Position numbers and translations under genes: made by a program
The notes under the pieces: model-generated
Databases searched by the model: none
The model's input: only the letters and a program-made list of their open reading frames with translations
Told to the model about the DNA's origin: nothing
In this document: positions 34-52,782 of the stretch, piece by piece
How positions within the stretch are numbered: position 1 is the first letter of the stretch
Layout: every line of letters begins with the position of its first letter
Assembly (NCBI GenBank): GCA_950295325.1
Contig: OX485804.1
Coordinates: forward strand, 1,860,001 to 1,924,000
DNA from: Polytrichum commune
Taxonomy: Eukaryota; Streptophyta; Polytrichopsida; Polytrichales; Polytrichaceae
Length of the DNA stretch: 64,000 nucleotides
Reading direction: 5' to 3'

Positions 34-76
34 AACACTATATTCGTTAATCGGAGACTTTTGAAAGTCTCAAAAT
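34..76 (+). repeat. Left terminal inverted repeat of element A
   Basis: AACACTATATTCG is followed by a small hairpin made of GAGACTTT and AAAGTCTC. The same arrangement is found at 16081-16108, 39961-40005 and 57726-57764. Confidence 0.9.
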
Positions 77-438
77 AAAATATGCCCATAGTTTGGGATG
101 CCAATATTGTGGGCATATGGAATGTTGGGAACATCAAGAACATGACAATTTAAAAATTCGCACGTAAAGAATATTCCTAATACTAAAAATAGAAAATTGC
201 AATTATAATGAAAACGTGAACTCCATGTGGAAAATAACAAGCGAATATAAAAAACAAATGGTTTATGTCATTATAGAGTTTGGGGTGCGCATCCCATAAG
301 TAAGGTTCTTATGGTTTTGGATGGCACATCCCAAACGTATACCACAATGGAGTGTGACAAGTCTACTAAGTCTATTAAAAACCAAGACTACTAAGTACTA
401 ATGTTTTTTCCCGCCGTTAACTTTCACCTATGTTATGT
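77..438. other. Left subterminal region of element A
   Basis: This is noncoding DNA between the left TIR and the stop codon of the DUF7869-like gene. It holds degenerate repeats of a TTTGGGATGC-like motif in both orientations (near 95, 270 and 315), a possible subterminal binding repeat. No gene is seen. Confidence 0.5.
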
Positions 439-3400
439 TTACCCATCTCCATCTTCCGCTTCATATCCATTCTCGGCGTCATTTTCCGCAGCTGCAATAC
501 GTGCCAAGTTGTCTTTGGCAAAATCTATATGTTTTTGGGGGATGGTCATTGCTTCTGTGTTGGAACCTTTGCGCGGCTTCCAAGCACAAAGTATAGTATC
601 CGTGTTTATCCAAACCGGTGTGTACGCTGAGTCCACTGTCCACTTAAAATTCTTTTTGGTGTCCCAACCTAAATAAGTGCGGAGCACGTTGTGGTCTTTA
701 GTGCTTGGACGACAATATTCCACCTCAATTTGACGAAAGTTGGGGTTAGTTCGAACAAAATTGGGTGAAGACAATGCTTTTACCAACCAAATTGGCTTGG
801 GATGCTCCTCATCCCCAGCTCGTACGAGGACCAAATACCCTTCATGGCAATCAACACCTACACGAAACGACGGTGCCGGTCGATTGCGGGCAGGGCCAAC
901 GTAATGCTCGTCCATTGCGAACTCTTCACGAACGTCTCCATTGCTGAAAAACATAGTATCGGACTCGACAACCGTCAAACGACTTTGTGGCCAAAATCCT
1001 TGTGTCAAAGTCGTACGGGTGTCGCCACCAAGTGTTATCAAGGCTGAGCGAATGCGATCCCAATACGCGATCAACGGTTCATGGGTATCTCTAACACGTC
1101 TTGTGATGTCCTCCTCGCACAACTCTTTCCAATATTCAATGAATCCGGATATGCCTTTGATGATTTCCGGCCCATTCCTCATGGGTTCGGGTTTGCAAGG
1201 CTTTGGTTCCCCATCCGGGACCAAACATTTCCCATCATTGTCTTGACGCCATACGAGTATACCATCATCCGGGCCCCAATTAGGAGATGTGCACAAAAGC
1301 TTGAATTGCATGGCCGGGAGACCATCGTCCCTCATATAAAATCGGAATTGTTGTGCTTTGGTATGCCCCACCAAACGGTCCCCTCCCTTCAACATGTATG
1401 GCTTGATGAAGGCCTTGAAATTTGGTACTTCCTCAATCAAGTGCGGAATTACTGGCATATGGTCCAAATCCATATACGATTTCATAAGAAGAGGTATGGT
1501 TGGAAAATCTTCTTCATGCAACTTCATGCTCCACCGTCCGAATGATGCATCAATGTCGTCGTGTGTATGTCCCACCATCAAGAAAGACACAAACACCTCC
1601 TTGAAGATTCCTTTCGCCACGAGCAATGACCAAAAACAAAATACGTATCGACATTTGTTGTCCTTCGCACAATTATCAAGTTGAACGTGGAGAGTTGGAG
1701 GCAATGGTTTTGCACAAATGGGCTCTCCGGGTGGTTCTGGCAATGACGACATACAAACCTCCTTCCCCAAAAGCACTGCCTCATAAAGGGATGTGGTTCC
1801 ACAACCATCAAAAAGTGCACGGGAAGAATGTACCGGTGGCTTCTCAAGATCGCGCAACAGTTTTGCAAATGAACCCACCGTGTGGTTAGCATCCCCAGGG
1901 TAAAAATCCAAACCATAATGGGCATACTTTACGTCCCCATGGCCGTGGGCAATCATACCTGGAAAAAACAAACGATGCGTGACCAAAATAATCAAATAAC
2001 CACTAAACGGATGTATGGAGTTGGACATTTGCCAAACACACCCAAGAAAATTGGATAGACTTTAAACACGTAGTTGTGATTTCATACAAACCTGTGACAG
2101 CTACGGGCAACTTGAAGAGACCATCCGTGGCCTTTATTTTGCGTGCATAACAAGGGCATGCGGTCTTGGCGTGGTCCATTTTATCATGGATGACTGTTAG
2201 AACCTCTGTGGGCCTCATTATGGATAGAGCACGATTCTTATAGTAATCTTGACGGTGTGCCTCTTGATTGTTGACATGTTCAATATATTTTTTCTGGTGT
2301 CTGGAATGAGATTCAGTGCCTATGGGGTGGGCGTCTCGAAGACCTTTGTATTTTTCACACGTCGTACATCTAGCGAACTTGTCCCCGGGTCTTTTCAGAA
2401 TGTATTCCGCAAACTGCTGGTTTTTAATCACACTCAACTTGGACAAAGAAATGGGCCCACATCCCGCTATGCGACCCACTTCATTGATGTCCGTTAAGAT
2501 GTTCTTCCATTTTGTGCCCGTGGGCAACACCATTTGAACAACCTTCTCCCCTGACGACAATGTCCTCGTCTTGTGGGGCATTGCATCGGCCAATGGCACT
2601 ATGATGGTGGATAGTGTCGCGGACGCTTGCAGTGTAGCCTCCCTAGGTTTCTTTGTGCCCGAGTTGCCATGAAATCGAGAGCGGCGACCCAACGATGAAT
2701 ATTTTCGAAACCTATAAAAGTCAGCCTTGGAGACGGCGTGGATGGTATACCACGCTGTACAACACACATCAACATTCTCAAGTGTCACCACCTTATGCCC
2801 ATGGGTATCAAGGTGCAAATTTCTGTGGACCTCGAGTTTCTTAGCCGACCTCATACGAAAATCCGCAAGCCACATCTCTTGACGCAGAGATCTAATTTTC
2901 TCCCGCGGGAAAAATTGGCAACATTTCCTCGCGCAACAATCCTTGCCGGACACTAGACGGATAGATTCGTCCCCCAAAAGCCGATCCCGTCGACGCTCCT
3001 TATCTCCGCGAGGCACACGGTTTGAATCATATCTACGGAGGCCTTTGCGAGGACGTGTTGTGGCCAACAAAGCTAATTGTGTTTGCTTATGCCGCCGCTC
3101 ATGATCCCACAAACTCACTTCCTCATGTAGAACTCGACGAAGCGGCCATCGACGCAAGGAAAATCTCCATGTCACCGGGAACTCTACCGGAAGCAAAGAG
3201 TTCAAGATGCACACGCCAACATCATCGAGACCTAGGGCGTTGGCATCGACACAATCACGGGGATTGGAGTTTCTACATATACCATCTGCCACCGGGACAC
3301 CAACCTCGTTGAGTAGAACGACATCAAGGCCAACCCATTGCTCCCTCCCGAAACCGGCACACAACGGAATGTCATCGTGGTCATCTCCGGAATGCAGAGA

Positions 3401-3568
3401 TTGTTCGTGGACTTCCAAAGATTCATGGGAGGATGTATCCACAAACACCCCCCTCACGTTTGGCACACCATTGCTATCTGCCGACGGGGAAGACAGTTCA
3501 CATTCAGCATCGGATGACGATGCATACGTCGACAACTCCAATGAACTATCACCCACATGCAACGCCAT
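439..3568 (-). CDS. DUF7869-like protein, transposase candidate (element A)
   Basis: There are two coding exons, 3568-2092 and 1958-439. The intron has a GT donor at 2091 and an AG acceptor at 1960-1959, and splits the Gly of VTG|M. The product is about 998 aa. The start at 3568 is the first Met after an acceptor-like TCTAG and aligns with the element B start. Visible features are an acidic N-terminus, CC-x3-CC at about 211-217, CxxC at about 401-404, HDKMDH at about 461, QLDNCAKDN at about 584-593 and GHTHDDID at about 622-629. The last three blocks are typical of DUF7869 proteins found in plant and animal repetitive ORFs. I infer an RNase H-like DDE-type nuclease with acidic residues in those blocks, which would move the element. 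The homologue in B (54179-57236) is colinear. Function is inferred from family resemblance and TIR context. Confidence 0.8.
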
Positions 3569-3572
3569 ACAG

Positions 3573-5205
3573 CCTAGACCAACCACCAGGACATGATCAA
3601 CCCAACCACCACCGCAATGCATACAAGAGAGGATAGAATATATGTGGAGATAAATGGCCCAAAATTGACAAACAAATTTTGGTGCACCATTGGAGAACCT
3701 CACGCACAAAGACGAACGCGCGTCCCAAAAAAACGTTTTAAGCATACGTCTAGGTTGTTCACTAATGTAAACAATACATGGACAAAGAGGAGAACACTCG
3801 TTAGTCGTCCAGGAGGGCCCTGCTGTTCGGACCAGCGCCTGTCCACATACAACCGACGACGAAATCAGAAATCCGAGAACGCCACATGCATTTACGAACG
3901 CGCGTTCGTGACCTCAGTAACTTCTCCATGTACATCCGGCGGCCTTCGAGATCCCTCAAATGAGAGCACCCTGAGGAATATCGGTTTTGTAGGTCAAAGT
4001 ACCATGTTGACTTAGGAACCTGCGCGATATACTATCACAAGAGAACACTTGTCCATACGCACAAAATTAGCAAATCTGCAGATGATGCCTGAATCAACTC
4101 CAACAATATTTTGAACACTGAGCACCTCCATATTGTGAATTTGATTATGTTGACTTTTGCGTACCTACCCATTTACGAACGGACGTTCGTAAATGGGTGC
4201 GACCCCGTGTTCACATCCTTCACGGACGAGCGATGAGCATATTTTTCTTGCTATTCTGTGTTCGTAAATTACTGCCATACTGATGTGCATGAATGAAGAT
4301 GTGTTGCTGGATGCGTAGACAATAATGACATGTATTTACGAACGAACGTTCGTAAATTCCCGACCATCAGGTAACAATAGATACGGGTCAAATAAGTATG
4401 TATGATCCTCGAAGGCATATTTACGAACGCACGTTCGTAAATGACTGTCATGGATTAAGTGCATGTGACTAACCATATGAGTACCTCAATCCAGAACATG
4501 CTCTCATGTGGGATTTACGAACGCACGTTCGTAAATTACCGACCAACAGGTACCAATAGACAAGGGTCAAATATGTATGTATGAAACTCGAAGGCATATT
4601 TACGAACGCACGTTCGTAAATAAATGCCATGGATGATGTGCATGTGACTATCCATGAGTAGCTCAATCCAAAACATGATCTCCTGTGGGATTTACGAACG
4701 CACGTTCGTAAATTACCGACCATCAGGTACCAATAGATAAGGGTCAAATATGTCTGCATGGTCCTCGAAGGCATATTTACGAACGCACGTTCGTAAATAA
4801 CTGAGATGGATTACGTGCATGTGACTATCCATATGAGTAGCCCAATCCAGAACATGCTCTCATGTGGAATTTACGAACGCGCGTTCGTAAATCCTTGCCA
4901 TGTCCAGGTCCGAATCGTTTGTCTAAACCTGAAGCTCTTCATCTTTACGAACGTGCGTTCGTAAAGTTCCGGTATTTACGGCGGTATATGCGGTAGGTAC
5001 AGCCTGTACTGTACCTGGGTGGTGTAGGGTTGGCGCACACGAAATGGCTTGAGCGCGTTCGGTGAGGTCTGTAGAGCGCACACTTGCATGTGCCGCTGAA
5101 AAGAGCTTTGTTGTGGGGGGAAGAGCTTTAAGTACTTCACCCCGCTGGTTCAAAATCCCTTGGATGCTTTTTAAAAAGCAGATTCCCGCCGCCTTCTTTG
5201 ACCTA
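3573..5205 (-). promoter_or_regulatory. 5' leader and leader intron of DUF7869-like gene (A)
   Basis: Reading minus: a TATA-like box (5234-5240), a leader exon of about 190 nt ending CCACCCAG with a GTAC donor at about 5014, an intron to an AG acceptor at 3575-3574, then the ATG at 3568. All ten left-hand palindromes fall inside this predicted intron. Element B has the same layout. The splice sites are read by eye. Confidence 0.5.
3891..4965. repeat. Palindrome array A-1, ten sites
   Basis: Ten copies of half-site TTTACGAACG, two variable bases and the inverted half-site begin at 3891, 4172, 4335, 4420, 4514, 4599, 4691, 4776, 4870 and 4944. From 4335 to 4870 the spacing alternates 85 and 92-94 bp, because the array is a tandem repeat of about 178 bp carrying two sites per unit. 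The first copy has a decayed right arm. A lone half-site lies near 4260. Confidence 0.95.
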
Positions 5206-5233
5206 ACAATCTCCCATTCCATCCATGCGGAAT

Positions 5234-5240
5234 TATATAA
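5234..5240 (-). promoter_or_regulatory. TATA-like box of the minus-strand arm (A)
   Basis: A TTATATAA run is placed about 30 bp upstream of the leader exon that precedes array A-1. Position fits a core promoter; no other support. Confidence 0.4.
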
Positions 5241-5249
5241 ATAGCATTG

Positions 5250-5355
5250 TCATGTATGGAACATGCCTTGCATGCACGCCAACATATTGAAAATATATAA
5301 ATCGGTTGCACACCTTAGTTGTGACCAAGGTCTCATCGAAATATATGTATATACG

Positions 5356-5389
<34 letters not shown>

Positions 5390-5504
5390 ATGTCTAAATA
5401 TGGAGATGGTTAACATTGAATATTTAATGATTTGCGACTAAGGTATGAAGTCCAAGTTAATTGACAATTGATGCCTAATAAAGTTATGAATGTCGAAGTC
5501 ATAG

Positions 5505-5545
<41 letters not shown>

Positions 5546-7130
5546 CAATGAGGTCAGAGTGGCTAAGAAACATGTTGCGGACGCCCCTAAAATTATAGGT
5601 ATCATATGTTTCACATCAAAAAATGACCGTAATATGGTCACCAAGTGCATGAATACAACTAAAAAATCGGGTTAATCCATAATGGCTTGCACTAGGGTAG
5701 ATTGAGGACACTATGAACTAATTATACCTAATAATATATGTAAGTTAGGTCTTCTTTCAAATGGTATCTAGGTGTGAAAATAAGGAATTAAAATGGCATG
5801 AGTAGGAAGGATTAATCAATTTGTAATGCTGCATAGTATGATAGCGTAATGATCATTGAGACTTGAAACCATACTAGCTACCGTAACGTTGAATCATAGT
5901 TACAATTATTATGTGTTTGACGTCCTATTGGAAATTGAATTTTCGTCCACTTGTTGTAAGGGTACGGATACACATTGGTTAAATGTTTATTAGATCATTG
6001 GTGATATTTATAGTTGAATGCATTGTTCGATTGTTAGTTTAAGTTGACACATGATTAAATGAGTTGAGGTCCTATTGGAAATAGACTTTTAGGGTTTGGG
6101 GAAATGCACTATTAATTTGGAATGGTGCATACAATAGTATGTACTTACAATTAATATATGTTTTGCATCCTATGAGAAGGATGTGCATCATCATAGCTTA
6201 AAGTGTTGATATAAATTGAAGTCTTAAGACATGCATGTTATTATAATAAGATCGTGGATTGTGTGATGAAATTTCACTCAGAACTATTAAGGTGAAAGTG
6301 GGAATATTTGAAATTTCACTTATCACTTAAACCAAAGTTTTATCTCAAATCTATTAATTTGGAATGTGAAATTGACAATTGCCATCATTATCAATTATTA
6401 TAGTTGTTATGAACGGAATTAAGCATTCTCCATCCAACCAACATTGGTAGACCAATTTGACCTGCCCTCAGAAAACAACATGGCCACATATAAGAAAGGT
6501 TGGTAAGATAAAAAGATGCAGGGATGTAGGGTTTAGGGTTTGCGGTTAGGGTTTAGGGTAAGGGTTTGGGGGTAGGGTTTAGGGGTTTAGGGTTTGTGAA
6601 AGTTGTGTATGTGGTATTTGGGTTTAGGTTTTAGATTGTTACTAGGATACATTACACACACAAACAATATTGACTCCTCAAAAACCCTTGTAATTGCATT
6701 AACTTCATTCATCGCAAGCTCGTAGTTGATGCTAGCAAAATAGTTGACCACTCCAGAAATGCATTAGTTCAAGCTAACACCTAATATTAGAACTTGAATT
6801 GACATCCTATCGTATAGCAACTCTGCGCAATCTCATATTATTATGAATTCTTTTTTGCATGTAATATTTATTTGAGGAACCATCGAATTAATTGAAAGAT
6901 ATCTAGCTCTTACATAAACTATATTTTAAAACACCATATATATATCTTTGGGGGTGGATTCTACATTGACAACCTAGGGAGTGACATGCATTGTTTATTA
7001 CGAATTAACTGAGCATATTTTCCTAAAATATGTTTACAAGGAATCCAAATGTAGAGGTACTAAGGAAATAAAACGAGTAAAATTCATGTATTTGAACTAA
7101 GCTTGTCAAGTTAATGCCTTAAACGCGTCC
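5250..7130. other. Gene-poor centre of element A
   Basis: AT-rich DNA without a convincing ORF, lying between the two divergent promoters. It contains TA/CA microsatellites (about 5343-5388 and 5504-5547) and a degenerate TTTAGGG-like run at about 6525-6600. Confidence 0.6.
6525..6600 (+). repeat. Interstitial telomere-like run
   Basis: Several imperfect GGGTTTA units occur in one orientation. The centre of element B has a shorter run on the other strand (51404-51429). It is embedded in unique sequence, so it is not a chromosome end. Confidence 0.7.
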
Positions 7131-7136
7131 ATTACA

Positions 7137-7144
7137 TATAAATA
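7137..7144 (+). promoter_or_regulatory. TATA box of the ORF1 arm (A)
   Basis: TATAAATA lies about 40 bp before a pyrimidine-rich leader (CCCATC repeats from 7188) typical of plant 5' UTRs. This fits the transcription unit that splices to the ORF1 start at 8902. Confidence 0.5.
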
Positions 7145-7164
7145 TGTCAAAGCATGAGAATAAC

Positions 7165-8154
7165 ATGAAGGGTTCCAATATACAACCATCTCCCATCTCC
7201 CATCGCATCCCATCCCATCCCATCTCTCTCCCAACCCTAGCCAGTGGAGTTGTGCCACGTGGCAGGTGCTGGGAAACCCTAGCGGCGCACCTACCTCCCC
7301 GCGCCCCTTCCTCTTCTCCTCATTTGTCATTTCGAGGAGAGGAGGAGCGGAGCGTTTAGAGAGCGAAGCTCTTGCTTTTTTTAGTCTTGAAGTTTTAAAT
7401 TAGTTTTGTTGCAAGTTTTGAGAGATTTCAGATTGAGAGCTTGTGTGAAAGCTTTTGAGTTTGTGAAAGCTTTCATTGTGAAAGCTTGTGAGTTTGTGAA
7501 AGCTTTCAGTGTGAGAGTTTGTGAGTTTCAAAAGCTTGAGAGCTTGAGTAGGAAAGCTTCAGAGTTTCGGATTGAGAGCTTGAGGGTGATCTTTAGAAGC
7601 TTGAGAGTTTAAGGAAGCTTCAGAGTTGAAGCTTGAGAGTTTAAGGAAGCTTCAGAAGTGAAGCTTGAGAGTTTAGGGAAGCTTCAGAAGTGAAGCTTGA
7701 GAGTTTAGGGAAGCTTGAGAGTTTAGGGTTTGCTTAAGAGTTCAGAAGCTTGAGAGCTACAAGGTTGTGAGTTTTGTGTACATAGGAGTATACTAGGGTT
7801 TGTATATAAGCTGTGAAGGCTTGAGGTCTGCATTAGAGAGTTATCTGAGTGTGCATTTGAAAGGCAATTGAGTGTGCAGTTGTGAGGATTTCTGGGATTT
7901 TCAGAAAGAGAAGAAGCAGGGATTGCAGTGTGCAGCATTTCAATGTAATTTGTTATCCTTTCCAACTCCTCTCACATTCTGAAAATGTTGCTTCTTGAAT
8001 TCAATTTCTTTTGTTACATGCAATGTGAACTATCACTCTTTTCTTCATGTTTCATTCTGCATCTCATTCTGCATCTCAATTGCTTTATGATTGAAGAATT
8101 GCATCATTCTGACCAAAATTTTGCAGGCACGGCTGCAAGCAGAGTAACTAATAA
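7165..8154 (+). other. Predicted 5' leader exons of ORF1 (A)
   Basis: A C/T-rich start is followed by a purine-rich repeat tract. A small exon of about 28 nt is bounded by TTTGCAG (8126) and a GTGAGT donor at 8155. The intron that follows (8155-8901) contains array A-2 and ends GCAG directly before the ATG. Confidence 0.45.
7420..7765 (+). repeat. Tandem repeat of GAAGCTTGAGAGTTT type
   Basis: Imperfect units built on GAAGCTTGAGAGTTT, with or without an extra TTCAGAAGT, repeat through the predicted leader exon. Unit length varies (about 20-45 bp). No stable protein reading is implied. Confidence 0.75.
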
Positions 8155-8241
8155 GTGAGTTATATACATATACATATATATACGTATTCGTATATACACG
8201 AATACATATATGTACGGACAGGGGATCCCAAAACCATCACA

Positions 8242-8873
8242 TATACGAACGCTCGTTCGTAAATGGACATACACTGCATACCCACCTCCATTTACGAACG
8301 CTCGTTCGTAAATGGACATACACTGCATACCGAACCTCCATTTACGAACGTGCGTTCGTAAATACGCACTCCACGTTCTTTGAGATGATCTATATTTACG
8401 AACGCACGTTCGTAAATATACTCAAAATATCACTCAGAAAGAACCTTAACTTAAATATGAACCTCTATGAATATCTAAAGAACAAATACAATTTTGCGAA
8501 CACCAATAAGACAAATCACATGTACTTACGAAAGATAAATCAACCAAATATCCGAAAAGATAGACCAAATGGACATACTTACGAACGCACGTTCGTAAAT
8601 GAATCCAAACCTATAAAACCTATATCTTTTACGAACGATCGTTCGTAAAAATAACCAAATATATTACAAACACATTCATGACGAGTAGTCTCTTTGATCT
8701 TCATATCTTTTACGAACGCTCGTTCGTAAACTCAATACTAAAAATTTATATGATCTTGCAACCCCTCATTTACGAGCGAACGTTCGTAAATATAATTACA
8801 TCAATTGCAAAGACGCATTAACACTGCGTAGTCTGTGGGATATGCATGTCACTTACGAACGTTCGTTCGTAAA
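8242..8873. repeat. Palindrome array A-2, nine sites
   Basis: Sites begin at 8242, 8291, 8341, 8395, 8578, 8628, 8709, 8769 and 8852, with the TTTACGAACG half-site and free central dinucleotides (CT, TG, CA, TC, AA, TT). They lie inside the predicted leader intron of ORF1. Spacing is irregular, unlike array A-1. Confidence 0.95.
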
Positions 8874-8901
8874 GTCACTAATTGTTTATATTTTGTTGCA
8901 G

Positions 8902-11900
8902 ATGGCAAGATCAAGCAGAAGCGCCATTGAGATGTTCGCGGTGAAGGTCGATGGCCTCCCAGAGTCGGTGTTAGACGATAACGGCAACGACAACTATGTC
9001 CCCAAGGAAGACTTCATGGGGGAGTGGACGGCACTGCCAGAGAAGATCGGGGACGGCCTCTTCTGCATGCGCTTCACCTACGAGCTGGAGACAAGACCGG
9101 ACCAGCCCGAACAGTGGGTTCAAATGAAGACGTGGGAGATAGAGTCCATAGAGGCCCAGGGGGAGTATGTAATTCTGGACATGAAGGACAAGAAGGATCA
9201 TATCAACCTCTTGTTACATTTTCAGAAAAATACCTTCTCCTACCAATACGCCACCAATAACGTAGCGGAAGATGCCAAGCACTTCGACCTGGACGGCCTC
9301 TTCTCCAAATATGCGTTGAGCCCATACTGGACTGCAAGGAAATTGAACGCCCTGGCATTGAACATCTCTAAATACAACAGTGTGGTCACTGAGGCAAACA
9401 AGAAGAAGAAGAGCCCCAGGAAACCATCCACATCAGGGGCAGGAGGATCTAGAAGTGCACCCAGGCCTGTGCCTTCCGCTAGCAGGGCGACGGAGGGCCC
9501 CAGTAGACACTCCACGCCATCGAAGAGGACAAGGGAGGAGATGGAGAAATCGGGAGTAACGGAGACCGCAGAGGTGACCTCGCCTGTCGTAATGCCCACC
9601 CCCTTGAAAAAGGGTGAGAACCCTGACGCTGTGAAGGCCACGAGGATCCTTCGAGACTTCAACAACTACTCGAAGGATTGCTGGCCCATGGGACGCCACT
9701 TCACATTCAACGTGGACTGCTTCAAGTGCGAGATGTCCCCCAACAAATGGGTGGTTCGCTCTCGCGAAAGCGGTGGTGTGAAGTGGCAGATAAATAATCT
9801 AATGAACAACGTCAAGTGGGACAGGCAGACCGTCTGCGTCATGCCGAAGGGGCTGACATCCCGTCCGACGGAGAAGGACTGGCCACGGATCCAGAATGGA
9901 GAGTTCTGGATCATAGACGGCCAACACAGCTTGGAGGCGTCCCAAATAATTCTCAAGGACGACAACTTCCAGCATGAGCTGAAGGAGGACTTGCGCTACT
10001 GGAAGGCGTTCTTGGTGTGGTCGGACGATTGGGACAAGCTGCGGAAGATATCCACCTTCCTCAACTCCGGCAACAAAATCAAGGCCTTCGAGGCGTCGTG
10101 GGCAGCCAACATAGTGGCTGCAAGGGACGTCTGGGTCGCCCACGGGTGCCCCCCTAAAGAAAGGGAGAACGCGAAGACGCCGTCTCCACAATGGAAGGTG
10201 AGTTTACGAACGAACGTTCGTAAATATCTTTGACATTCAAATTTTCAAGTTCTTTGACATTCAAACTTACGAACGTGCGTTCGTATTTTGTGCGTTACTG
10301 ATGTTTTTCTTGCTGCAGGCATTCTGCGACGCGATGGTGGACAAGTTCTCCTCCATCGACATGAAGTCTACAACAACCAAGTCTGTCCTGGAGCTCAAGG
10401 GTGAGCTCCGCCTCATCTGTTGCAACAGGGACACTTGGGAGTTGTGGACACAATTTTTTGATGCGCACAGCTCGGGCGATCTGGTCAACCCCGACACCGA
10501 GGAGAAGTACAGCGCGGAGAAGACCGGGGAGGCCCCTCCACTACTGAGGGAGTTCTTCAGGTCCCTTCAAGGGTTAACAGAGTCCGAGTTGCAGAGGTGC
10601 GCGGTGCATCTTCTTGGGAACACTGTGGGAAGAACCATCCCATACCTGAAGATATTTTTGAAGAGGCCAAGACACAAGCCCGGCACGTATTCCATCAAGG
10701 AATGGTGCGAACACCGCAAGCTGAAGACTGCTGCAATGAGGGAGTTGAGCGCCCTAATACCAGAGTACGCACTCATCCTAGCCGACGGGGACATTAATTG
10801 GGCCAGCTGGAAGATGTTCAAGGTCGACTACAACATCTCCGGACCCTCAATGCGTTGTCTTGTCAAGGAGCACGCCTCCATTTTGAAGCAGAAGGGGAAC
10901 AAGAGGACAAAGAAAACCGAGACGGATCCCCAGGAGGTGGAGCAATACAGAAGCTTTTTGACGCGGAAGAGGTTGGCCACATTCGAAGGAGTGGCCAGAT
11001 TTTGTCTGTTGACAAAAGGAGTGGAGAGGGTGACATTTTCCAAGTGGGACCGGACCATGAGCAGGGCCGAGGTGAGGGAGGATCGACGGGGGTGCCCATT
11101 TGCCCTGATCGATTTCAGGGGGATCCCCGGTGCGTCGAGGCAGGGGGGGAAGGACATACCTTTCTACGACCCCTTCATGGCCAAGTTCAAGGAGCACAAG
11201 TCTCCGGACATGAGGGAGCCTCACGTTTGGCTGTGGATAGTCGAGCAGGAGAAGCTCTCTGCTGTAGTCGACCTGTACGAGAAGTCGATCAAATTTGAGT
11301 ACAGCATCTTCCACAGCACTTACGTGCCCGCCAAGACGGAAGGGATCGTGGCCATCAACGAGGCCAGGGGGAACAAACAGGTGGGGGCGGTCAGCCTCGT
11401 CTTCTTGACGTACAACGCGCTGCGGAATGGGCGAGCCCCTGTCAAGGCGAACACTACGTTCAAGAAGATCTACAGCATCCCCCATCCCCCTCCCAAGGAT
11501 CTGCTGCAGGAGACCTTGTACACTGTCTTCCCGGCGATGGAACTCAGGTTGGAGTTCTACGTCTCCGTTTTGCAGAGCGTGGCAATAAGCGGAGAGACCG
11601 TGTACAACGTTTGTGGCGGCAGCAAGTTCATGTACGCTGCGATGGTAAGCTCTCCAACTAATATTTACGAACGCTCGTTCGTAAAGTTCACCTCAACTTG
11701 TCTTGGGTTTGATGACATTGTTTCTCGTCGTTGATGTTTACGAACGCACGTTCGTATTTTCTAACGTATTTGCTTGAATCTCAGATGCTGGGGCTGGTCG
11801 TCAACAGCTTCATTGAAGCCATCGACGAGGAGGACTTCCACGTGCACAGGGCGAAGGCCTCCACGATGGACCTGGAGGACATGTCCCTCCCGAGGACGGA

Positions 11901-12768
11901 CATCAACATGCCCGTCGACGAAGGCATGCCCGCCATGGAGACGGACGACGACGAGCCCGCGCCCTCCTACAACGTCGAGGCGATCCTCCGATCCTTGGAC
12001 GTCACTCCTCTCCGCATTTTGGCGCCGTCGGGAAATCCATCCGACGTGCAAGGGACTCCGGGTGGATACACGGGGTCGTCGGCGGGGACAACCCAAGATG
12101 TCCTCCCCGCGAGAACGTCTGGAGCGGAGGCATTCGGCACTCCCGGGGGATGCTCGACATCCGTGTCGCCCAGGCCGATCGTGGTTCCCAAGATGGAGAA
12201 CCTCGACCTTCTGGACCAACGGTCCCGACCGACGTTGGACCAGTACCGCAACACGAGGCGGAGGATGAAGAAGACCCCCTACGTGGAGCTGCCTCCGGGG
12301 GCAATCATCGAGGTCTCCGATGAGGACGAGGGCGACATGGAGATCATGGTCGAGCTGGGGGTAGACTTCGACAAGAACAAGCGGGTCAAGGAGGAGGCGT
12401 TGTCCGTCGCCGAGCTTAACGCCAAGCTCGAGCAAAAGATGAAGGAGGACATGGCGAAGGCGGCAGAGGAGAATGCCAAGAAAATGTTCGCAATTCAGGA
12501 GGAGCTGAGGCAGTCCAACGAGAAGACGGACGCCATCCTCGCCATGCTCCAGCGTATGCAGAGCTTCTCGGCGCCCCCCCAGCCGGCCTACCCCTTCCCT
12601 GGAGGATACCCCTCCCAATCCCCTCCACCGGGCATGTTCACCGGAGGGCCTTCCCGCCAGCAGGCGCCCCACCCCACGCCTGTTGGCACTCCTCCGCCAC
12701 CAGAGGTTCCCTCGACCACCTCCCACGATGCTGTGGCGGCGGCCATCCAGGAGGACGAGGATTTATGA
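8902..12768 (+). CDS. ORF1 (A): large ParB/DGQHR-like protein
   Basis: Three coding exons, 8902-10197, 10319-11644 and 11785-12768, all join in phase 0 and give about 1201 aa. The start is the ATG directly after a GCAG acceptor, as in element B. Around residue 339 is FWIIDGQHSLEAS, which resembles the (V/I)DGxHRxxA signature of ParB/Srx-like and DGQHR domains; the usual Arg is Ser here. The middle is a conserved domain of unknown function, with VWLWIVE and FYDPF shared with B. The last exon is acidic and proline-rich, holds IIEVSDEDE (SUMO-interaction-like) and a coiled coil of about 60 residues, then a P/G/S-rich tail. Each intron carries two palindromes. A DNA-binding role at those palindromes is my inference. 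The stop TGA lies inside a palindrome, and the frame stays open beyond it. Confidence 0.82.
10203..10287. repeat. Palindromes A-3 in ORF1 intron 1
   Basis: Two sites, at 10203 and 10266, flank the 121-bp intron (10198-10318). The first overlaps the GTGAGT donor by one base. Confidence 0.93.
11664..11758. repeat. Palindromes A-4 in ORF1 intron 2
   Basis: Two sites, at 11664 and 11737, lie near the donor and acceptor of the 140-bp intron (11645-11784). Confidence 0.93.
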
Positions 12769-12783
12769 ACGCGCGTTCGTGAA
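12762..12783. repeat. Palindrome containing the ORF1 stop codon
   Basis: The left arm reads TTTATGAACG instead of TTTACGAACG. The C-to-T change at a CpG makes the in-frame TGA that ends ORF1. With the consensus base the frame would run on into the spacer without a stop. Confidence 0.85.
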
Positions 12784-14604
12784 TCTTCAGGTCCTCCAGT
12801 CCTCACCCCTCCCCCTTCAAGGGTAGGACTGCCCTCATACACCGATGCATCGTCTTTCACCGTCGTCCCCAGGGTAGTAGACAGACATGGCGATGACTCT
12901 GCGCGACACACTGACATGGTCATTGTGGAGGACACGCAGGGGAGCCCCAATGACGCACCAGGGGTGCATGGGATGGACGTGGAAGAAACCCATGCGGCGT
13001 GGATGGAGGATGTCAGGATGGACGCGCTCGACCTGGGCGCCGAGGAAGAAGACGCGCTGCGCATCCAGGCGACACAGGCCTCTCAACCGGAGCGTGAGGC
13101 AGAGGCCATGGAGACAGAGGCGGCTGCAGCTGTGGAGGTTACGAACGCGCGTTCGTTAATCGTTGAGGAGGGACCTGCTGCTCGGTCCAGCGCCGCTACC
13201 CCTCCCCCCGATGACGAGGTAACTCTCCTCTGAGAATACCATTTTTTAACGAACGCGCGTTCGTAACCTCTCTAACATCGCGATGTTTTTCTCTTCATCG
13301 ACATCCAGTGGCCTTGCGAGAGCCCTCTTCAGCGGTCCCCCTTAGGGCCGAACAGTTTTGTAGGACACGGCATCATTTTGCCTTAGGAAAATGTGATAGA
13401 CTATCACGTGAGAAATGTAAATATTCAACGGATTAATATATGAGCCTATGTTATCTGCATCGCGTTGCTTCAAATTCTCTGCCCTCGACCCCTTCTCGTA
13501 TGTTGTATATGTTGATGAGATTATGTTGATTCTTGCATACCCACCTCATTCGCGAACGCTCGTTCGTGAAAGGCTGCGACCCACTGTCCACCTCATTCGC
13601 GAACGACCGCTCGTAAATGTACGTGTAGCCGCGCTCACGAACGAGCGCTCGTAAATGATGCGCACCGCCCCCGCAGCCTTCATTCACGAACGCTCGTTCG
13701 CAAGTGTGCCCTTGAGCACATTTTCCTTGCACTCTCCTCACTTCCTCGTCTTTCCCCATAATGCACCGTCTTCATTTTCTACGCAAAATTTCATTATTGG
13801 ATCATAGAATTAAACTAGTCGCGTTGTTCATCACAGGACCCCCCGGAGATTGGTCGCAACCCCTCTACCAGTGGACCTCCCACCCGGAACAAACCTTTCA
13901 TCGTTTTTGACCTCAACGGGGTGTTGTGTCACACCCAACACATCCCAAGGGTCCCCACGCGTCCCTTCCGTCACCCCGACGAAAGGGACTACGACGGCGA
14001 GCTCGACACCCTCATTAACCGCAAGGCTGTCCGCGCCCGTCCCGGCTTGCGTGACTTCCTTCGCGAGGTGGTCGAGTTCGCTCACGTCATTGTGTGGAGC
14101 TCCATGGTCATGGAGAACACCGAGCCCATCGTGCACTTCTTGTTCCGCGATCTCCCGAGCCCTTGCCTCGTCCTCGGCCAAGAGGACTGCGACGAGCTGC
14201 TCGACGAGAAAGGTCAACCGGTGCCCAAGTTTGGCGGTCGGGGCGGAGGACAACAGTTCCTCAAGGTCCTCCGCTCGAGACTCTGGCGAGGCGTCCCCCG
14301 TCTGCAAGGGACGCCGCACGGGTGGTGGCCGACTCCAGAGAACACCGTCCTCATCGACGACAGCCCCACCAAGAGCGTCTTGAACCCCCCGGGCAACGTC
14401 ATCTTCCCGGACACTTGGACCGGCGATAGGCAAGACACATTTTTGGTCGATAGGCTAGCCCCCTACCTTAGAAGGCTCGTGCTCCACGCCGGTAGCATCC
14501 CATTTTTTGTTAGGTCCAACCCCTTCGGCAATGCGGCGCTAAGCCCCCGCGATAATGTATTCAAGAGCATCATGAGGCTCGCCAAACTCAATAAATTGAT
14601 TTGA
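12769..14604 (+). CDS. ORF2 (A): spacer plus FCP1/HAD-like phosphatase
   Basis: Exon 12769-13218 is open in the same frame as ORF1 from the codon after its TGA; the first Met is at 12916. It ends DDE|GTAACT. Exon 13837-14604 follows in phase 0 after a TCACAG acceptor. The catalytic-type block IVFDLNGVL, then VIVWSSM and TVLIDDSPTKS, place it with FCP1/SCP (NLI-interacting factor) HAD phosphatases. The second Asp of the usual DxD is Asn, a variant also seen in plant FCP-like proteins, so activity is uncertain. A phospho-Ser/Thr substrate such as an RNA polymerase tail would be a family-based guess. Translation could use the Met at 12916, stop readthrough from ORF1, or a separate transcript. 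It ends NKLI-TGA, as in element B. Confidence 0.75.
13138..13159. repeat. Palindrome in coding spacer exon (A)
   Basis: A slightly diverged copy (GTTACGAACG, CG, CGTTCGTTAA) is read in frame as VTNARSLI within the spacer exon. Confidence 0.85.
13246..13704. repeat. Palindromes A-5 in the spacer intron
   Basis: Five copies start at 13246, 13549, 13595, 13634 and 13683 in intron 13219-13836. Several arms show CGCGAACG or CACGAACG variants, so this group is more diverged than arrays A-1 and A-2. Confidence 0.88.
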
Positions 14605-14715
14605 AATGCCTCCATGTCTTTGCTTGTATCATGTGGTTCACATTTACTAATGCTTGCTTCGTTTTTGGATGTCTTTTGTTGTTGTGATTGTTGTTGTTGT
14701 TGTTCTTGCCCATAG

Positions 14716-15716
14716 TCTGCCCCCATATGCGACGCCCCTGTGGTCGACGGCCCTTCCCGTCCCCTCTCGCCCCCTGCCTCCCCTTCCCGCGACGTCACGG
14801 GCTTCCAAATGCCATCCCTCTACCAGTTCTCGGCGGTCGACGCGGCCTCGGCCGTGGATTACTCCCGCGACGTCGGCATCGACGACGGCGTCGTCAACAG
14901 CCCGCCCCCACCACTTGTCGCCCGCGCCTACGCCCCGTCGCCCTCCCCCCTCTCCAAGGAGAAACGGACGCTCGTTCGTTTGGGACACCTCTTGCCCTCG
15001 AGGGACGACGCCGTCGCTCGTCGCGGGCCGAGCCGGCGTCTCCGCATGGAAGGCCCCCGTTGCCACACCTCCCCCGCCGACTCCGTTCCTCCCCCCGCAA
15101 CGTCCTCCGCGATCGTGGGCCCTCCACGCCTCGACTCCCCCCCGCCATCCAACATAATTGCAATAGTTCCATCGGCTCCGGATGCTCCCGTCGACGCCCC
15201 CCTCGTTCCCACCGTTCCCCGCATGGACGTCCCCAAAGCCAAGGTGCCCTCCTCAACCCTGAACCCCTTTCTCGCTTTTGCTTTCCTTGTCTTCCGTTTG
15301 CGTGCCGTTCTCTTTACGAGCGCCCATCCCAAACCGCCCTCATTATTTTCCCCACTCCATTCCTATTCTTATCTTCCTATGACGTTGTTTCGCAGGTGGT
15401 TACCCGCTCGCTTGGTGCCCGGCCCTCCTCCACGTCCTCCTTGGATAGGCACGCCCTCAAGGCCGCATCTTCCGAGTCCGATCGTTGTCTGGCCCTCCGG
15501 AGAAGCGCAAGACGTTCCCTTTCGCAAACACCCTCGCATTCTACTTATAATACCACCTCTTACAATTTGGGAGCGCGTCCTAAAACATGCAAGAACGACA
15601 CATATTCCTGTCCAGGCAACACACAAGGATACAGTCGTGGGCCTGAGATTTTTAGAGCCATGGAGGCCGCCAAAAAAAAGGGCTTAGCCGCAAAAAAAAA
15701 TAATGGGTCGGACTAG
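14716..15716 (+). CDS. ORF3 (A): small Ser/Pro-rich basic-tailed protein
   Basis: Exons 14716-15243 and 15396-15716 join in phase 0 (donor AAG|GTGCCC, acceptor CGCAG). The first exon starts at an ATAG acceptor; the first in-frame Met is at 14809. Conserved with B are AAS-xDYS, GVV-SPPP, the RRLRM block, and the end with a Gly-rich turn, a GPEIFRAMEA-like helix and a Lys-rich tail. No known domain is recognised. B lacks the Met at the aligned position, so this exon is probably spliced from an upstream exon of the same unit rather than being a free gene. The C-terminal Lys run could be a nuclear signal (inference). Confidence 0.55.
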
Positions 15717-16080
15717 TGTGACGTCTAGAAGCGTACTAGTGGGACGGACTCCCTAAATGGGCTTAGGTGTAGAACATATTTAAGTGCTTACTTTCTATGC
15801 TATTCCAAGTTACTCAAGACATTGATGGTATTTCCATTATAATTGTATTTCAATCCCAATTAATTCATTCAACTTCCATTCATTCTTCGCACCTTCCCTT
15901 CCATTCATAACGAGTTGTGATTTCATACGCAACTATTTTCATGTATGCCTCACATTTTTGTTCACTTCCATGCCTTTATGTATAATAATAGTAGCATACC
16001 ATTATACATATGGAATTTTTAGTCGTCATTACTGGTCCAATTTTGAAAGGTGCATCCTTATATAGTCTCATAATCAACAA
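15717..16080. other. Right subterminal region of element A
   Basis: Noncoding DNA between ORF3 and the right TIR. Nothing else is recognised. Confidence 0.5.
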
Positions 16081-16108
16081 AAAGTCTCCAAATACCGAAT
16101 ATAGTGTT
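16081..16108 (-). repeat. Right terminal inverted repeat of element A
   Basis: The reverse complement starts AACACTATATTCG and reaches GAGACTTT, pairing with position 34. Confidence 0.9.
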
Positions 16109-21018: not shown

Positions 21019-21978
21019 CTAACCACTGTAATCAGATTCCTCACCGGGCTCGATGTAGTCGAATAAAATCAAGTTGTCGTGGCTGTAGATTAAATCTTCT
21101 TCGATCGGGTAAGCGCTCTCGGAGCACTCTCGGAGTTTTGCAGGCACGTAGACGCCTGGATGTGTCACCAGCGGTGTCTGATCATGCAGATAACCTGACT
21201 GTGATCTTCCGTTTGACGGTCTTGCTACTTGACTCAAACTTCTTGTCTCCTCAGGTCTCGTGTCGACCATGGGGAGGGATTTATGACTGTCACCATGAGC
21301 TGCCGGGATACTCGACGGTATCGCAGCATATGCAGCTGCCTTAGCGATGGATTTGACGTCTTCTTCACCGGGCTCGATGTAGTCGAATAAAATCAAGTCG
21401 TCGTGGTTATAGATTAAGTCTTCTTCGATAGGGTAACCAGGTCGTCCTATTGAGCACTCTTGGAGTTTTGCAGGCACGTGGACGTCTGGATGTGTCACTA
21501 GCGGTGTCTGATCATGCGTATAACCTGAATGTGATCTTCCGTGTGACAGTCTTCCTACTTGACTTGAACTTCTTGTCTCTTCAAATATCGTGTCTACCAT
21601 GAGGGATTTATGAGTGGCAGGATGAGATGCCGAGAGACTCGATGGCATTGCAGCATATGCAGCTGCCTTAGCGATGTCTTTGATGTATTTGTGATTAGTG
21701 CAGGGCCAAACCTGATCAGGAAAAATTAGGGCATCCGGGAAGTTGAGCATCGGGTGGTTCGGCCCTTTCAAGCACACCACAGCCGCATCGTAAGCTCTCG
21801 CGGCCATCTCGGCAGTACGGTAAGATCCTAACCAGATCCGTTTCTTGGTGATCGGGTCCCAAGTTTCCGTCACCCATACCCTCCAATCGGGCCGCATGCG
21901 CACGCCATTGAACCTCGGTGCTGCAGGACTGGTGCAAGGAATTACTTCAATTGGTACGTGACCTCCAATCCTTCCCAT
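21019..21978 (-). CDS. AP2/ERF transcription factor with duplicated tail
   Basis: A 319-aa protein starts at the first real ATG (21978); the frame is open further upstream but only from a GTG. The AP2/ERF DNA-binding domain is at about residues 22-81: RFNGVRMRP, a Trp-rich WRVWVTE strand, WLGSYRTAEMAARAYDAA and LNFP. This family binds GCC-box or DRE-type promoter elements in the nucleus. After the domain a block of about 105 residues occurs twice (about 102-206 and 211-315). Each copy starts IAKAAAYAA and ends EEDLIY-H-LILFDYIEPGEE, an acidic-hydrophobic stretch like an activation domain. No intron is needed. Subfamily and targets cannot be given. Confidence 0.85.
   Translation of the reverse strand: MGRIGGHVPIEVIPCTSPAAPRFNGVRMRPDWRVWVTETWDPITKKRIWLGSYRTAEMAARAYDAAVVCLKGPNHPMLNFPDALIFPDQVWPCTNHKYIKDIAKAAAYAAMPSSLSASHPATHKSLMVDTIFEETRSSSQVGRLSHGRSHSGYTHDQTPLVTHPDVHVPAKLQECSIGRPGYPIEEDLIYNHDDLILFDYIEPGEEDVKSIAKAAAYAAIPSSIPAAHGDSHKSLPMVDTRPEETRSLSQVARPSNGRSQSGYLHDQTPLVTHPGVYVPAKLRECSESAYPIEEDLIYSHDNLILFDYIEPGEESDYSG
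21034..21675 (-). repeat. Tandem duplication inside the AP2 gene
   Basis: Units 21361-21675 and 21034-21348 (about 315 bp each) are clearly similar and keep the frame. Confidence 0.88.
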
Positions 21979-22516
21979 TGCAGAACAATATGTGGGTTCG
22001 TCGGCTCTGGGCACTAAATACGACTCGCAGCAGTCAGGCCACCACTTTGAGGCACTTACATTCACAGGTACCTGACACTTGGCGCTTCAATCCTCCTCGG
22101 TACTATTGCAACAGATTGCTTTAACTTGCAACGCCAACAGACAGACACCTCCTAATGCAACCTGTGTAGAAGAACTTAGAAGAACTTAGAAGCTACAGTA
22201 GTTTATAACATCTGGAACTATGTGGAACTACAGTATCTGGAACTATGTGGAACTATCTGAAACTATGTGGAACTTTGACTGGGAAAAATCCTCACTCACA
22301 GGATGAAATTAGTCAAGGAGTCGTCTCTCCCGATGACGTTGACGTCTTAACGTCGCATATAGTTGTTAGGGTGAGCCACAAGGAAACTGTCATTTCCCTT
22401 CGGTCGATAAGCAGACGGGTTTCTGCTGACTCATTGCTGATTTTAAAATAAATTCTTTAGTTTGACCTCATTTGCCTTGACGTTCAGTTTTGAGCAACAA
22501 GCCATGGTCATTGCTT
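21979..22516. other. 5' flank of the AP2 gene
   Basis: There is a short tandem repeat of TGGAACTATG at about 22210-22275 and a GTAAGT-like donor at about 22051. A leader intron is possible. No other gene is seen. Confidence 0.4.
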
Positions 22517-37815: not shown

Positions 37816-38154
37816 GGGGGGGGGGGTAGTCATTGGTTGGAGTAGCAATATACTTGCGAACAAATGATAGGGTATTTTAAAAACATGGGGGCAAAAAATT
37901 ATAATTGGACTTAAGAGTAATATAGGGTATCAAAAATGACACTGGACATCTTTAAAGTACTATAGGGTATGGAATAGTAGGTAATTTGGAATTATAAGTA
38001 ATGCAAGCCATTTTTCTATTAACCCAAAGTAGAAAATTACATAATGATAGCATGTGAAAAAAAGAAGAGAATTGAAAGTAATACCCCCTTATAAAATAGT
38101 GGTTGTTCGCACCTAGATCCTTAATTTTTTAACACACTGCCCCCCCCCCCCTAT

Positions 38155-39677
38155 GAGCCCAAAATGGTTGCTCATATTTGTTTTATGTTTAGAATTTATT
38201 TAGAATTGCATTTGGAGTGTTATTGAAACAATCAAAAGTATAAAAAGAGTGAGGCTTGGTGTGGTTTATGTTTTAGGCCTTAAGCCTATTTTGTGTGGTG
38301 AAGTAGAACCTTAGTGACATTAGGGAGTGTTTTGGTTAAGTGAGTAGTGTTTGAGGAAGCAAGGGGAAGGGCCTTGGAATTAAATGTTTGAATTAGAACA
38401 TGTTCTTGTTGGTTTATGGGATGAGGGTTTAGTGGATAGGATAAGGTCCTACTAAGTAGGAGAAGGTTAAGGGGTTTGTGGTCTTGGATGCCCTCTCCTC
38501 CTTCTTCCTCCCTTTTTTTTTTCTTCTCCTTTTTTTCTCTTCCTCTCCCCCTTCTATAGGATTTGGAGCTCTTAGAACTAGAAGAATAGTGGAATTAAGT
38601 AGGAATTAAGTAAGAGCTTAGTGGAATTAGTGGGCTTGGCTAGGGTAATTAGGTAGGGGCTTGATAGAATTAGGAATATAGTGTTTTTGGTTGAAATACT
38701 GGGGCAGGTCTGGTTCAATACGAGGAAAGTTTCTGGTTGAAATACTAAGGCATGTCTGGTTCAATACGAAGAGAGTTTCTGGTTGAAATACTGGGGCAGG
38801 TTCTGGTTCGAATGCGAGGAGAGTTTCTGGTGAAATACTGGGGCAGAGTCTGGTGCAATACGAGGAGAGTATCTGGTGAAATATTGGGGTAGAGTCTGGT
38901 GCAATACGAGGAGAGTTTCTGGTTGAAATACTGGGGCAGGTCCTGGTTCGAATACGAGGAGAGTTTCTGGTGATATACTGGGGCAGGTCCTGGTTCGAAT
39001 ACGAGGAAAGTTTCTGGTTGAAATACTGGGGCAGGTTTGGTTCAATACGAAGAGAGTTTCTGGTGAAATACTGGGGCAGAGTCTGGTTGAATATGAGGAG
39101 AGTTTCTGGTTGAAATACTGGGGCAGAGTCTGGTTGAATATGAGGAGAGTTTCTGGTTGAAATACTGGGGCAGGTGCTGGTTCGAATACCGGGGCAGCTG
39201 GTTGTTAGTTGGAAGGGCCGGTCGCGAGCTCGAGTAGACGTGGCAAGGTCAAAGGGCCACGGGCTTACGACGCTAGGGGAATTTAGTTCCCCATGAATAA
39301 GGAAGGGCATTAGGGACTATGTCTTAGTAGGGATTGGATTGTGGGGTTGTAAGTTAGTGTAGAAGTGAAGGGATAAATGGGAAAAAGCATTTTTCAATGC
39401 TTGTACTCGTATTATGGAATAAATTGGTGTGTAAGATTTGATGGGAAATGTAATGGATTCTCACGAATTTGGTAAGATGGAGTTATGGAAACATGAATGT
39501 GATATCCATTCCCTCACCCGGACTAGGACGCTTAAGGGTGGGTGGTTTGGCCTCACACCCCCCCCCCAAGATTCCAGCTTCCTTCTTTAAATTCCCCCCA
39601 AGGGATGCCAATGACATGCAAAATGTTCATCATGCAATAGTATTACAATAAAAAGTAGACTAGACTCATGGCCAAGT
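38155..39677. other. Interior of element C
   Basis: About 1.5 kb between the long inverted repeats. Apart from the minisatellite it has a CT-rich tract (38494-38550) and no convincing gene. Confidence 0.5.
38690..39195. repeat. Minisatellite of about 46-48 bp units
   Basis: About eleven imperfect copies are built on GAAATACTGGGGCAG, a TCTGGTT-like block and GAGGAGAGTTTCTGG. The minus strand is open for about 680 nt, but changing unit lengths and the lack of other support argue against a gene. Confidence 0.85.
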
Positions 39678-39960
39678 TGGGGGGGGGGGGGGGCAGTATG
39701 TTAAAAAGTTAAGGATATAGGTGCGAACAACCACTATTTTATAAGGGGGTATTACTTTCAATTTTTTTTTCCACATGCTATCATTATAAAATTTTCTATT
39801 TTGGGTTAATAGAAAAATGACTTGCATTACTTATAATTCCAAATTACCTATTATTCCATACCCTATAGTACTTTAAAAATGTCCAGTGTCATTTTTGATA
39901 CCCTATATTACTCTTAAGTCCATTTATAATTTTTTGTCCCCATGTTTTTAAAATACCCTA

Positions 39961-40580
39961 AACACTATATTCGTTAAATTGAGACTTTTTGGGCATTTTG
40001 AGACATTCACATAAATAAGAACAAGGATAAATGGAACACATATTGGAGAAAGTTGTAAGATGCGAACACTTTGAAGCAGGTGTTTAGACCAAGAACCCCA
40101 TAAATAACTCATATTTGTGATGGTTTAGGGTGGGCAATCCAAATCTTAGACCACATTTAAGGGAAAACCTTAAAACATTCATATTATTGCACACAAAATA
40201 TTAGAGCTTGTATGAATATGGTTTAGGTAGGGCAATCCAAACCATAGATCTTATTGAAGGGTTAATATGTTAACCAATATAATATTGCATACAAAATATT
40301 CCAAACTCATATTTGTGATGGTTTAGGTAGGGCAATCCAAACCTTAGACCATATGGAAGGGGAAATCATGTCTAACTTGTATTATTGCAAAAAAAAACAT
40401 ACAAAGTGTGGCATGTAAAATGCATATCATGCTAACACCACACATGCATTGGATAGTGCGACCCAAAATGTTCTTGCCTATGGCCCAAAACCCTACGCCT
40501 ACTATGGCCTATCTAGCCTCGGATACTACCTCTTTTTCTTTTGCTTCATTTTCTTTTGCTTTTTTTTCTTTTGCCTCTTT
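39961..40580. other. Left end and subterminal repeats of element B
   Basis: The TIR (39961-40005) is followed by three copies, about 100 bp apart (near 40118, 40218, 40316), of GGTTTAGG, a TAGGGCAAT-like core and CCAAACC. Each copy is itself imperfectly palindromic. Confidence 0.65.
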
Positions 40581-41316
40581 TTATTTTGCGGCAGCTTCTT
40601 TTGCTCGCATTGCTTCAACATTCCTGAAAATCTCCGCCCCGCAACTATAGCCATTCTTGGGGTGAACGCCATCAATAACACATTTTGTATTCCGTCGGCC
40701 GCCCGAATTATACGACGAAGAATTCGAATACGATGAAGTGGACTGTCTTGCATTTTTGGTCATGGAGTAGAAACGCTCCAACTCGATGGACGCACTAGAC
40801 CGCATAGGTTTACGGGTGGGAGCAACCTGCAACGCGTCAACGCAAGAACACATGTGTTAGTTTAGGGAGGAAGACCCAAACGTGTCACACGTTCATTTTT
40901 TAAGTGCAAAATGATTGTAATGCGCGGATAACCATGTTTTTTTTTGGGGGGGGGGGGTTCACCTTGTCACCGGGGGCATTCCCGTCGGAGTTGGCGAGGA
41001 GGGGCAAGGCATCCCGCAAAGGAATAGGAAGGGTTCCACTCTTCGTAGGCCGAGCGTCCATCCGCAACCGCCGTTGAGGTGTACTACTGCCGCCGGGCCG
41101 AGAGGGGGATGTCCGGACGCATTTGCGATTTATGCCTTTGAGCGGTGACGGGGACGCAGATCGCCGGAAGATTTGCTTGGGTGGGGGGCTATCGACGACG
41201 CCGGCGTCAAGAGGCTCCTTGGAGTAGTCGATGGTTGACGCGGCGTCGTAAACGGTCTCGTAGAAGAAGCTCCCCAAGTCTGACTCGCTGACGATGTCAA
41301 TCGAGGGCTCCAAACG
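40581..41316 (-). CDS. ORF3 (B): small Ser/basic protein
   Basis: Exons 41316-40963 and 40826-40581 join in phase 0 (donor ACAAG|GTGAAC, acceptor TTGCAG), about 199 codons. It matches ORF3 of element A in YDAASTIDYSKE, GVVDSPPP, RRLRMDA and the tail GAEIFRNVEA followed by a basic stretch. It has no Met before the conserved part, so it is expected to be spliced from an upstream exon of the ORF1-phosphatase unit. Function unknown. Confidence 0.55.
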
Positions 41317-42418: not shown

Positions 42419-42435
42419 CAAACACACGTACTGTC

Positions 42436-52780: not shown

Positions 52781-52782
52781 AG

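Follow-up and report, generated by a model that had tools for sequence, protein, structure and literature searches.

At the level of titles and the opening lines of abstracts, the open-licence literature places four systems nearest to the elements analyzed here: the VANC proteins of VANDAL transposons, ParB-VirB, algal ParB-methyltransferase transposons and CACTA elements. VANDALs are Mutator-like, and the joint diversification of a protein and its motif is already known from VANDAL and CACTA elements. In VANDALs, VANC, a protein with variable regions, is paired with a short motif that is dense, often tandem and located in non-coding DNA, introns included, and the co-evolution of protein and motif has been stated (PMC5735166). 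The family described here is similar in combining an element-encoded variable protein with dense non-coding motif sets, but the VANC21 motif YAGTATTAY has nine bases in one orientation, whereas the sites here are palindromes of 20–22 bp with a 2-bp centre (PMC5735166). As in VANC systems, lineage-specific motif sets in non-coding parts were found in 26 of 34 elements, and the accessory protein, ORF1, is more variable than the transposase-like DUF7869 protein.

ParB-parS and VirB-virS likewise have palindromic loading sites, some of them more than 1 kb from promoters (PMC10770331), and ORF1 has a ParB/Srx-like motif. These systems are, however, bacterial, with a demonstrated CTP clamp (PMC10770331), whereas such a fold is here a suggestion. 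Certain algal transposons encode ParB-like and DNA methyltransferase proteins, which their authors suggest bind and modify the element itself; like the elements here, they are giant DNA transposons whose accessory gene and transposase lie on opposite strands (PMC12477816). The methyltransferase part of ORF1 is, by contrast, at most degenerate, and palindromes are unmentioned in the main text of PMC12477816. For CACTA elements, which have TNPA-like proteins and share the letters CACTA in the TIR, parallel diversity of motifs and binding proteins between subfamilies within one plant species has been suggested (PMC2613891); the elements here differ in their internal sites, a TA rather than a 3-bp duplication, and a DUF7869 transposase-like protein (PMC2613891). 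We assign the family to neither ParB, VANC nor CACTA.

Two colinear elements and their palindrome sets

The window, meaning the whole stretch of 64,000 nucleotides that was analyzed, contains two colinear elements lying in opposite orientation, which are best explained as members of a large family of DNA transposons of 16–18 kb. Element A (35–16107) is bounded by TIRs beginning ACACTATATTCGTTAA, at 35–50 on the plus strand and 16092–16107 on the minus strand (2 mismatches in 15), and is inserted in the ORF of a copia retrotransposon; when the flanks are joined, the copia ORF is again in frame, and the target duplication that fits is TA. Element B (39963–57763) has the same TIR. Inverted copies of a single 52-bp sequence border it, and nested in the left flank is a 2-kb element whose TIRs measure about 280 bp (37820–39960 and 57766–57817). 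Between A and B, the minus strand has an AP2-domain ORF (21019–22086) that contains internal repeats about 330 bp long. This ORF and the copia element suggest that the host is a land plant.

Exons and introns in A and B were inferred from GT/AG sites and from the alignment of A and B proteins. Both elements carry a gene for a DUF7869 (PF25273) protein, the probable transposase, located in A at 439–3568 on the minus strand (exons 3568–2092 and 1958–439; Pfam E 4e-40) and in B at 54179–57236 on the plus strand (exons 54179–55622 and 55750–57236; Pfam E 2e-42). ORF1 is encoded divergently from it, at 8902–12768 on the plus strand in A (exons 8902–10197, 10319–11644 and 11785–12768, with IIDGQHSLEAS in exon 1) and at 44201–48380 on the minus strand in B (exon 1 from 48380, exon 2 at about 46762–45442, exon 3 to 44201; WLIDGQHSVEAS). 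In B, the frame is interrupted within the first two exons, where the tblastn pieces change frame, and an 8-bp tandem repeat lies at the frame change in exon 1 (47215–47244). An exon for a NIF/FCP1-like phosphatase domain follows in A at 13837–14604 on the plus strand (Pfam NIF E 3e-16), in the same phase as the spacer exon, and its counterpart in B, at 42439–43145 on the minus strand, was recovered as two tblastn pieces with the A protein as query. NIF/FCP1 phosphatases usually have the motif DxDx(T/V), which is replaced by DLNGVL in the domains of both A (13837–14604) and B (43145–42439). Identity between A and B is 62% for DUF7869, 44–46% for the NIF-like domain and 35% for ORF1, with one more ORF weakly similar (36%, E 3e-9).

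The TIR begins CACTA, with an A in front if the duplication is taken as TA, and an assignment to CACTA was rejected on the TA rather than 3-bp duplication and on the internal sites. Pfam (E ≤0.01) gave DUF7869 only (ORFs 439–2061, 2003–3913, 54149–55717 and 55728–57236), with none of the CACTA transposase domains Tnp2 and Transposase_21. No 3-bp target site duplication of the CACTA type was found at A, where TA fits, and the palindromes of A and B do not form CACTA-like subterminal repeats but are internal, the nearest to the TIRs of A lying 3.8 kb from the left one and 2.4 kb from the right one. Our scans of viral contigs found no relatives of ORF1 or DUF7869, PADLOC returned no match, and no mention of DUF7869 was found in the open-licence literature.

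A and B each have a palindrome of their own, built of 10-bp arms around two free central bases with a CG-NN-CG core. The A palindrome, TTTACGAACG-NN-CGTTCGTAAA, has 30 sites (≤3 mismatches) within 3891–13704, 16 of them with perfect arms, and the B palindrome, GTTTGGGTCG-NN-CGACCCAAAC, has 38 (≤3 mismatches) within 43690–53965, of which 29 have perfect arms; shuffled sequence gave 0 sites of either. The initial annotation had reported about 30 and about 39 copies over these two ranges, and had held that their positions match across the elements: the A count was reproduced, the B range was confirmed with one copy fewer, and A and B sites do occur at corresponding places, namely both leaders, ORF1 introns 1 and 2, and the 3' spacer. 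In A, the DUF7869 leader holds 10 sites (3891–4965, the stretch to which that annotation was attached), the ORF1 leader nine (8242–8873), intron 1 two (10203–10287) and intron 2 two (11664–11758). A further seven (12762–13704) are spread over the ORF1 end and the spacer exon (12769–13218), where they span 12762–13159, and the spacer intron, where they span 13246–13704. Read in the same gene order, B has 13 sites in the DUF7869 leader (53004–53965), 14 in the ORF1 leader (48408–49849), four in intron 1 (46838–47030), four in intron 2 (45283–45410) and three in the spacer (43690–44084). None of the 30 and 38 sites falls inside the DUF7869 exons of A and B. The ORF1 stop codon of A lies within the palindrome copy at 12762–12783, and the phase is kept across the spacer exon and on into that of the NIF-like domain.

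Such a layout, dense in both divergent leaders and in ORF1's own introns, could be that of operators that let ORF1 repress its element or set its timing, for autoregulation or copy-number control and not for anti-silencing. Nonetheless, 30–38 sites, including those in introns and the 3' spacer, exceed the need of a simple operator, and we consider this use of the sites unlikely.

Five palindrome kinds across the family

A PF25273 search found at least 150 DUF7869 matches in the 408-Mb host genome of 64 contigs (150 of 1491 candidates were scored, all above the cut-off). The elements compared were A, B and 32 of these 150, taken with their upstream DNA (20 including the top eight, then 12 for variety); the 34-element sample is non-random, as the 32 were chosen by eye. 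A search for repeated inverted arms, run without a prior motif, detected a palindrome set de novo in 26 of the 34, and the sets fall into five kinds, all with a 2-bp gap: A (TTTACGAACG, seven elements), A' (TTTACGGACG, seven), B (GTTTGGGTCG, five), C (CCCACGGGTG, three) and D (GGTGAGGCA, four, with 9-bp arms). The largest set with 8-bp arms and a 2-bp gap numbers 3–29 per element in these 26, compared with at most 1 in shuffles (20 each), and 0 to 2 in the eight elements where a palindrome set is absent (L019, L023, L024, L025, L029, L030, L053 and L062). L030 does have three weak C-type sites. L034 has six weak A-type sites besides its own set, and the piece of A-like ORF1 at its far end is presumably part of an adjoining element.

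On a tree of the DUF7869 domain (34 rows, 163 columns, midpoint root, 17 of 30 inner forks open), for which ORF1 was not the basis, each palindrome kind is confined to one part and none occurs in two separate clades. Kind A is found in a 95/95 clade of eight rows, A' in a group of seven rows (88/92, drawn open), and C and D each in a 100/100 clade, of six and eight rows respectively, while the B kind takes up all other rows, which form a grade when the tree is rooted at its midpoint. Of the set-less elements, L053 belongs to the A clade, three are among the six rows of the C clade and four among the eight of the D clade. It had been proposed from A and B that the whole set of sites was replaced while the genes stayed colinear, and the wider sample agrees: lineage-specific kinds follow the DUF7869 tree in 26 of 34 elements, with gene order kept.

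A and A' differ by one base per half-site, at arm position 7. Among 102 sites (≤2 other mismatches) in the seven A elements, 100 have A at this base in both arms, and among 76 in the seven A' elements, 64 have G in both; the remaining 12 A' sites have A in both arms (5), one of each (5) or other bases (2). These leftovers look like what is expected of a replaced set with relic sites. However, six of the 12 represent a single deviant site that recurs in the same spot next to the DUF7869 gene. This site, TATACG...CGTATA, lies at 9569 in both L033 and L035, 1321 in both L052 and L057, 1335 in L056 and 1317 in L059 (0-based, oriented as the DUF7869 gene).

Arm bases are mostly conserved at 0.88–1.00, compared with 0.54–0.74 for the adjacent outer base; lower values within arms were obtained for the outermost base in A (0.82) and for a single position in D (0.66), and some bases farther into the A', C and D flanks reach 0.78–0.88. 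The commonest central dinucleotide (strands folded) accounts for 64/110 sites in A, 51/115 in B, 95/155 in D, 65/80 in A' and 37/45 in C. The less free centres in A', C and D, the conserved flank bases and the weak D arm position are what array copying would be expected to produce. While the 10-bp arms, two free central bases and CG-NN-CG core given in the initial annotation are correct for A and B, the core does not extend to C and D, which have TG-NN-CA and CA-NN-TG instead; since the D consensus arms also lack CpG, methylation of CpG in the motif cannot be the common principle.

The same data bear on whether the palindromes are RNA hairpins of leaders and introns, or functionless micro-repeats multiplying within the element. 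Many sites stand in tandem arrays, so that array turnover would spread them, and in A' and C there is little variation at the centre and at some flank bases. However, in imperfect sites of the 21 of 26 elements with at least three perfect sites, 344 of 360 changed positions are one-sided, 10 have both arms changed and matching, and 6 have both changed and unmatched, a count biased upward by the 3-mismatch limit, under which a compensated change costs two. With departures so largely one-sided, base-pairing itself is apparently not conserved, and the RNA-hairpin reading was set low on this ground. In addition, A and B sites whose arms are identical differ in their central bases, which is not the pattern of plain copying, and sites recur at the same gene positions; hairpins and idle repeats are both very improbable. 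The palindrome would instead be a double-stranded DNA site for a symmetric dimer.

The partner might belong to the host. The sites were found without any protein data, and a host DNA-binding protein could read them, the lineages having switched between host factors. Five kinds along the element lineage and the one-base change from A to A' nevertheless better fit a co-inherited partner, which leaves a host factor a most unlikely reader.

ORF1 as the candidate binding protein

We favor the explanation that a dimeric protein encoded by the element, with ORF1 the likeliest candidate, would bind the palindromes as double-stranded DNA sites of two-fold symmetry. Between A and A', the DUF7869 protein retains 79–81% amino-acid identity (dN 0.13–0.15, five elements) and ORF1 48–49% (dN 0.46–0.47, two elements), with synonymous sites saturated in both genes (pS 0.70–0.79); ORF1 has diverged about three times as fast as DUF7869. 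Among copies with the same palindrome, ORF1 identity is 97% for L038, 76% in exon 1 for the more distant copy L063, and 77% for L064 over 53 aligned residues only. Between kinds, ORF1 of A is 35–37% identical to that of B-type elements (three elements) and 27.5% identical, over 120 residues, to that of a C-type element (one element). Comparing family members' palindromes with their ORF1, a check proposed in the initial annotation, thus found closer ORF1 identity going with closer palindromes among the sampled elements. Its claim of co-evolution with an element-encoded protein fits both this agreement and the faster change of ORF1, the probable binder.

The DUF7869 protein itself could bind the palindromes and so aid transposition, in the manner of proteins at CACTA subterminal repeats. 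The TIR beginning (A)CACTA would suit this, palindrome kind tracks the DUF7869 tree, and over the alignable N-terminal codons (68 in L033, 89 in L035) A and A' share just about 56% identity. The whole protein is, however, about threefold slower than ORF1, and the sites are not subterminal, given their 3.8-kb and 2.4-kb distances from the TIRs of A, which makes the transposase a rather unlikely binder. That ORF1 binds the palindromes is, in our judgment, probable; against it stand the pristine B sites beside a broken B ORF1 frame and the lack of a palindrome set in eight of 34 elements.

Under the ORF1 reading, a change in the specificity of ORF1 would be followed by replacement of all sites in leaders, introns and spacer through point change and repeat turnover, giving each lineage a private code. 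ORF1 would mark its own copies, and most likely load on the regulatory regions of its own element, keeping the genes expressed or countering silencing, and would act in cis and on sister copies, as VANC does. That its binding has a positive effect on expression, by whatever means, appears somewhat likely; anti-silencing in the strict sense we would put slightly below an even chance. Were the fold of ParB type, VirB and parS would be the mechanistic analogue.

A (D/N)GQH motif after a hydrophobic stretch is present in ORF1 of all five kinds (11 elements: two A, two A', three B, one C and three D). In the ParB/Srx, DGQHR and GmrS group, this position bears the signature motif, DGQHR or DGQQR (PMC4619093); the next residue in ORF1 is S, V or T, not the R of DGQHR. 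Sub-threshold matches to ORF1 were obtained with GmrSD_N (one of seven members, E 0.058) and PHROG 1033 'ParB-like partition protein' (two of seven, best E 0.058). At the motif, the phage ParB profile gave P 0.011 against the A/A'/B profile, vs 0.25 for a wrong profile, and P 0.046 with all kinds together, while the D and C profiles alone did not match it (P 0.30 and 0.35). Unrelated or unnamed families score near those of the ParB group (Vac_ImportDeg, E 0.13; phrog_10800, E 0.087), and searches of Pfam, NCBIfam, PHROG and PDB gave no significant ParB/Srx-group match to ORF1: NCBIfam returned nothing for five exon proteins, the PDB profile search with ORF1 no ParB chain, and PDB sequence searches nothing relevant. 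AlphaFold models of ORF1 exon 1 and the C-terminal part, made for two window sequences only, had mean pLDDT values of 34.6 and 33.9, too low to be of use. The motif and the sub-threshold matches strengthen the earlier comparison with ParB-parS, and descent of ORF1 from the ParB group is likely on this evidence.

For the C part of ORF1, comparison with motif I of N4C/N6A DNA methyltransferases gave P 0.045, vs 0.59 for a wrong profile, and by eye DFR/YFR stands where the DPPY of motif IV is expected. Pfam found no methyltransferase family in this part, its best match being the unrelated N-SET (E 0.067). Descent from a methyltransferase is, on these sequence features, an evenly balanced proposition. 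A weak HAUS-augmin3 match in exon 3 (E 0.001, under the family cut-off) is perhaps a mere coiled coil.

In a more specific and considerably more speculative version, which we think doubtful, ORF1 would derive from a ParB-methyltransferase fusion without catalysis, load at parS-like palindromes, spread and block silencing, and serial one-base recoding of all sites together with ORF1 would stop sister families from sharing the protein. The family appears to offer at least five candidate protein-site pairs in one genome, a natural series in which one sister pair differs by a single base per half-site. This series and the apparent relic sites would allow a direct view and test of how a DNA-binding specificity and about 30 scattered sites evolve together. 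If true, sequence-specific self-recognition by plant transposons would extend beyond VANDALs, possibly by means of a bacterial-type fold.

The A palindrome across the host genome

The exact A palindrome, the only kind counted genome-wide, has 2909 sites in 408 Mb, and its reversed control has 0. The initial annotation had named palindromes common outside the elements as a finding that would speak against its reading. Among the first plus-strand places listed for the A kind (86, all on C1), 84 are grouped into five clusters and two stand alone. Several of the five clusters have the two-leader layout seen in A. One A-palindrome cluster (G000:C1:640864-646099) has tight spacings of 33, 34 and 93 bp, unlike A, and consists of two blocks 3.0 kb apart.
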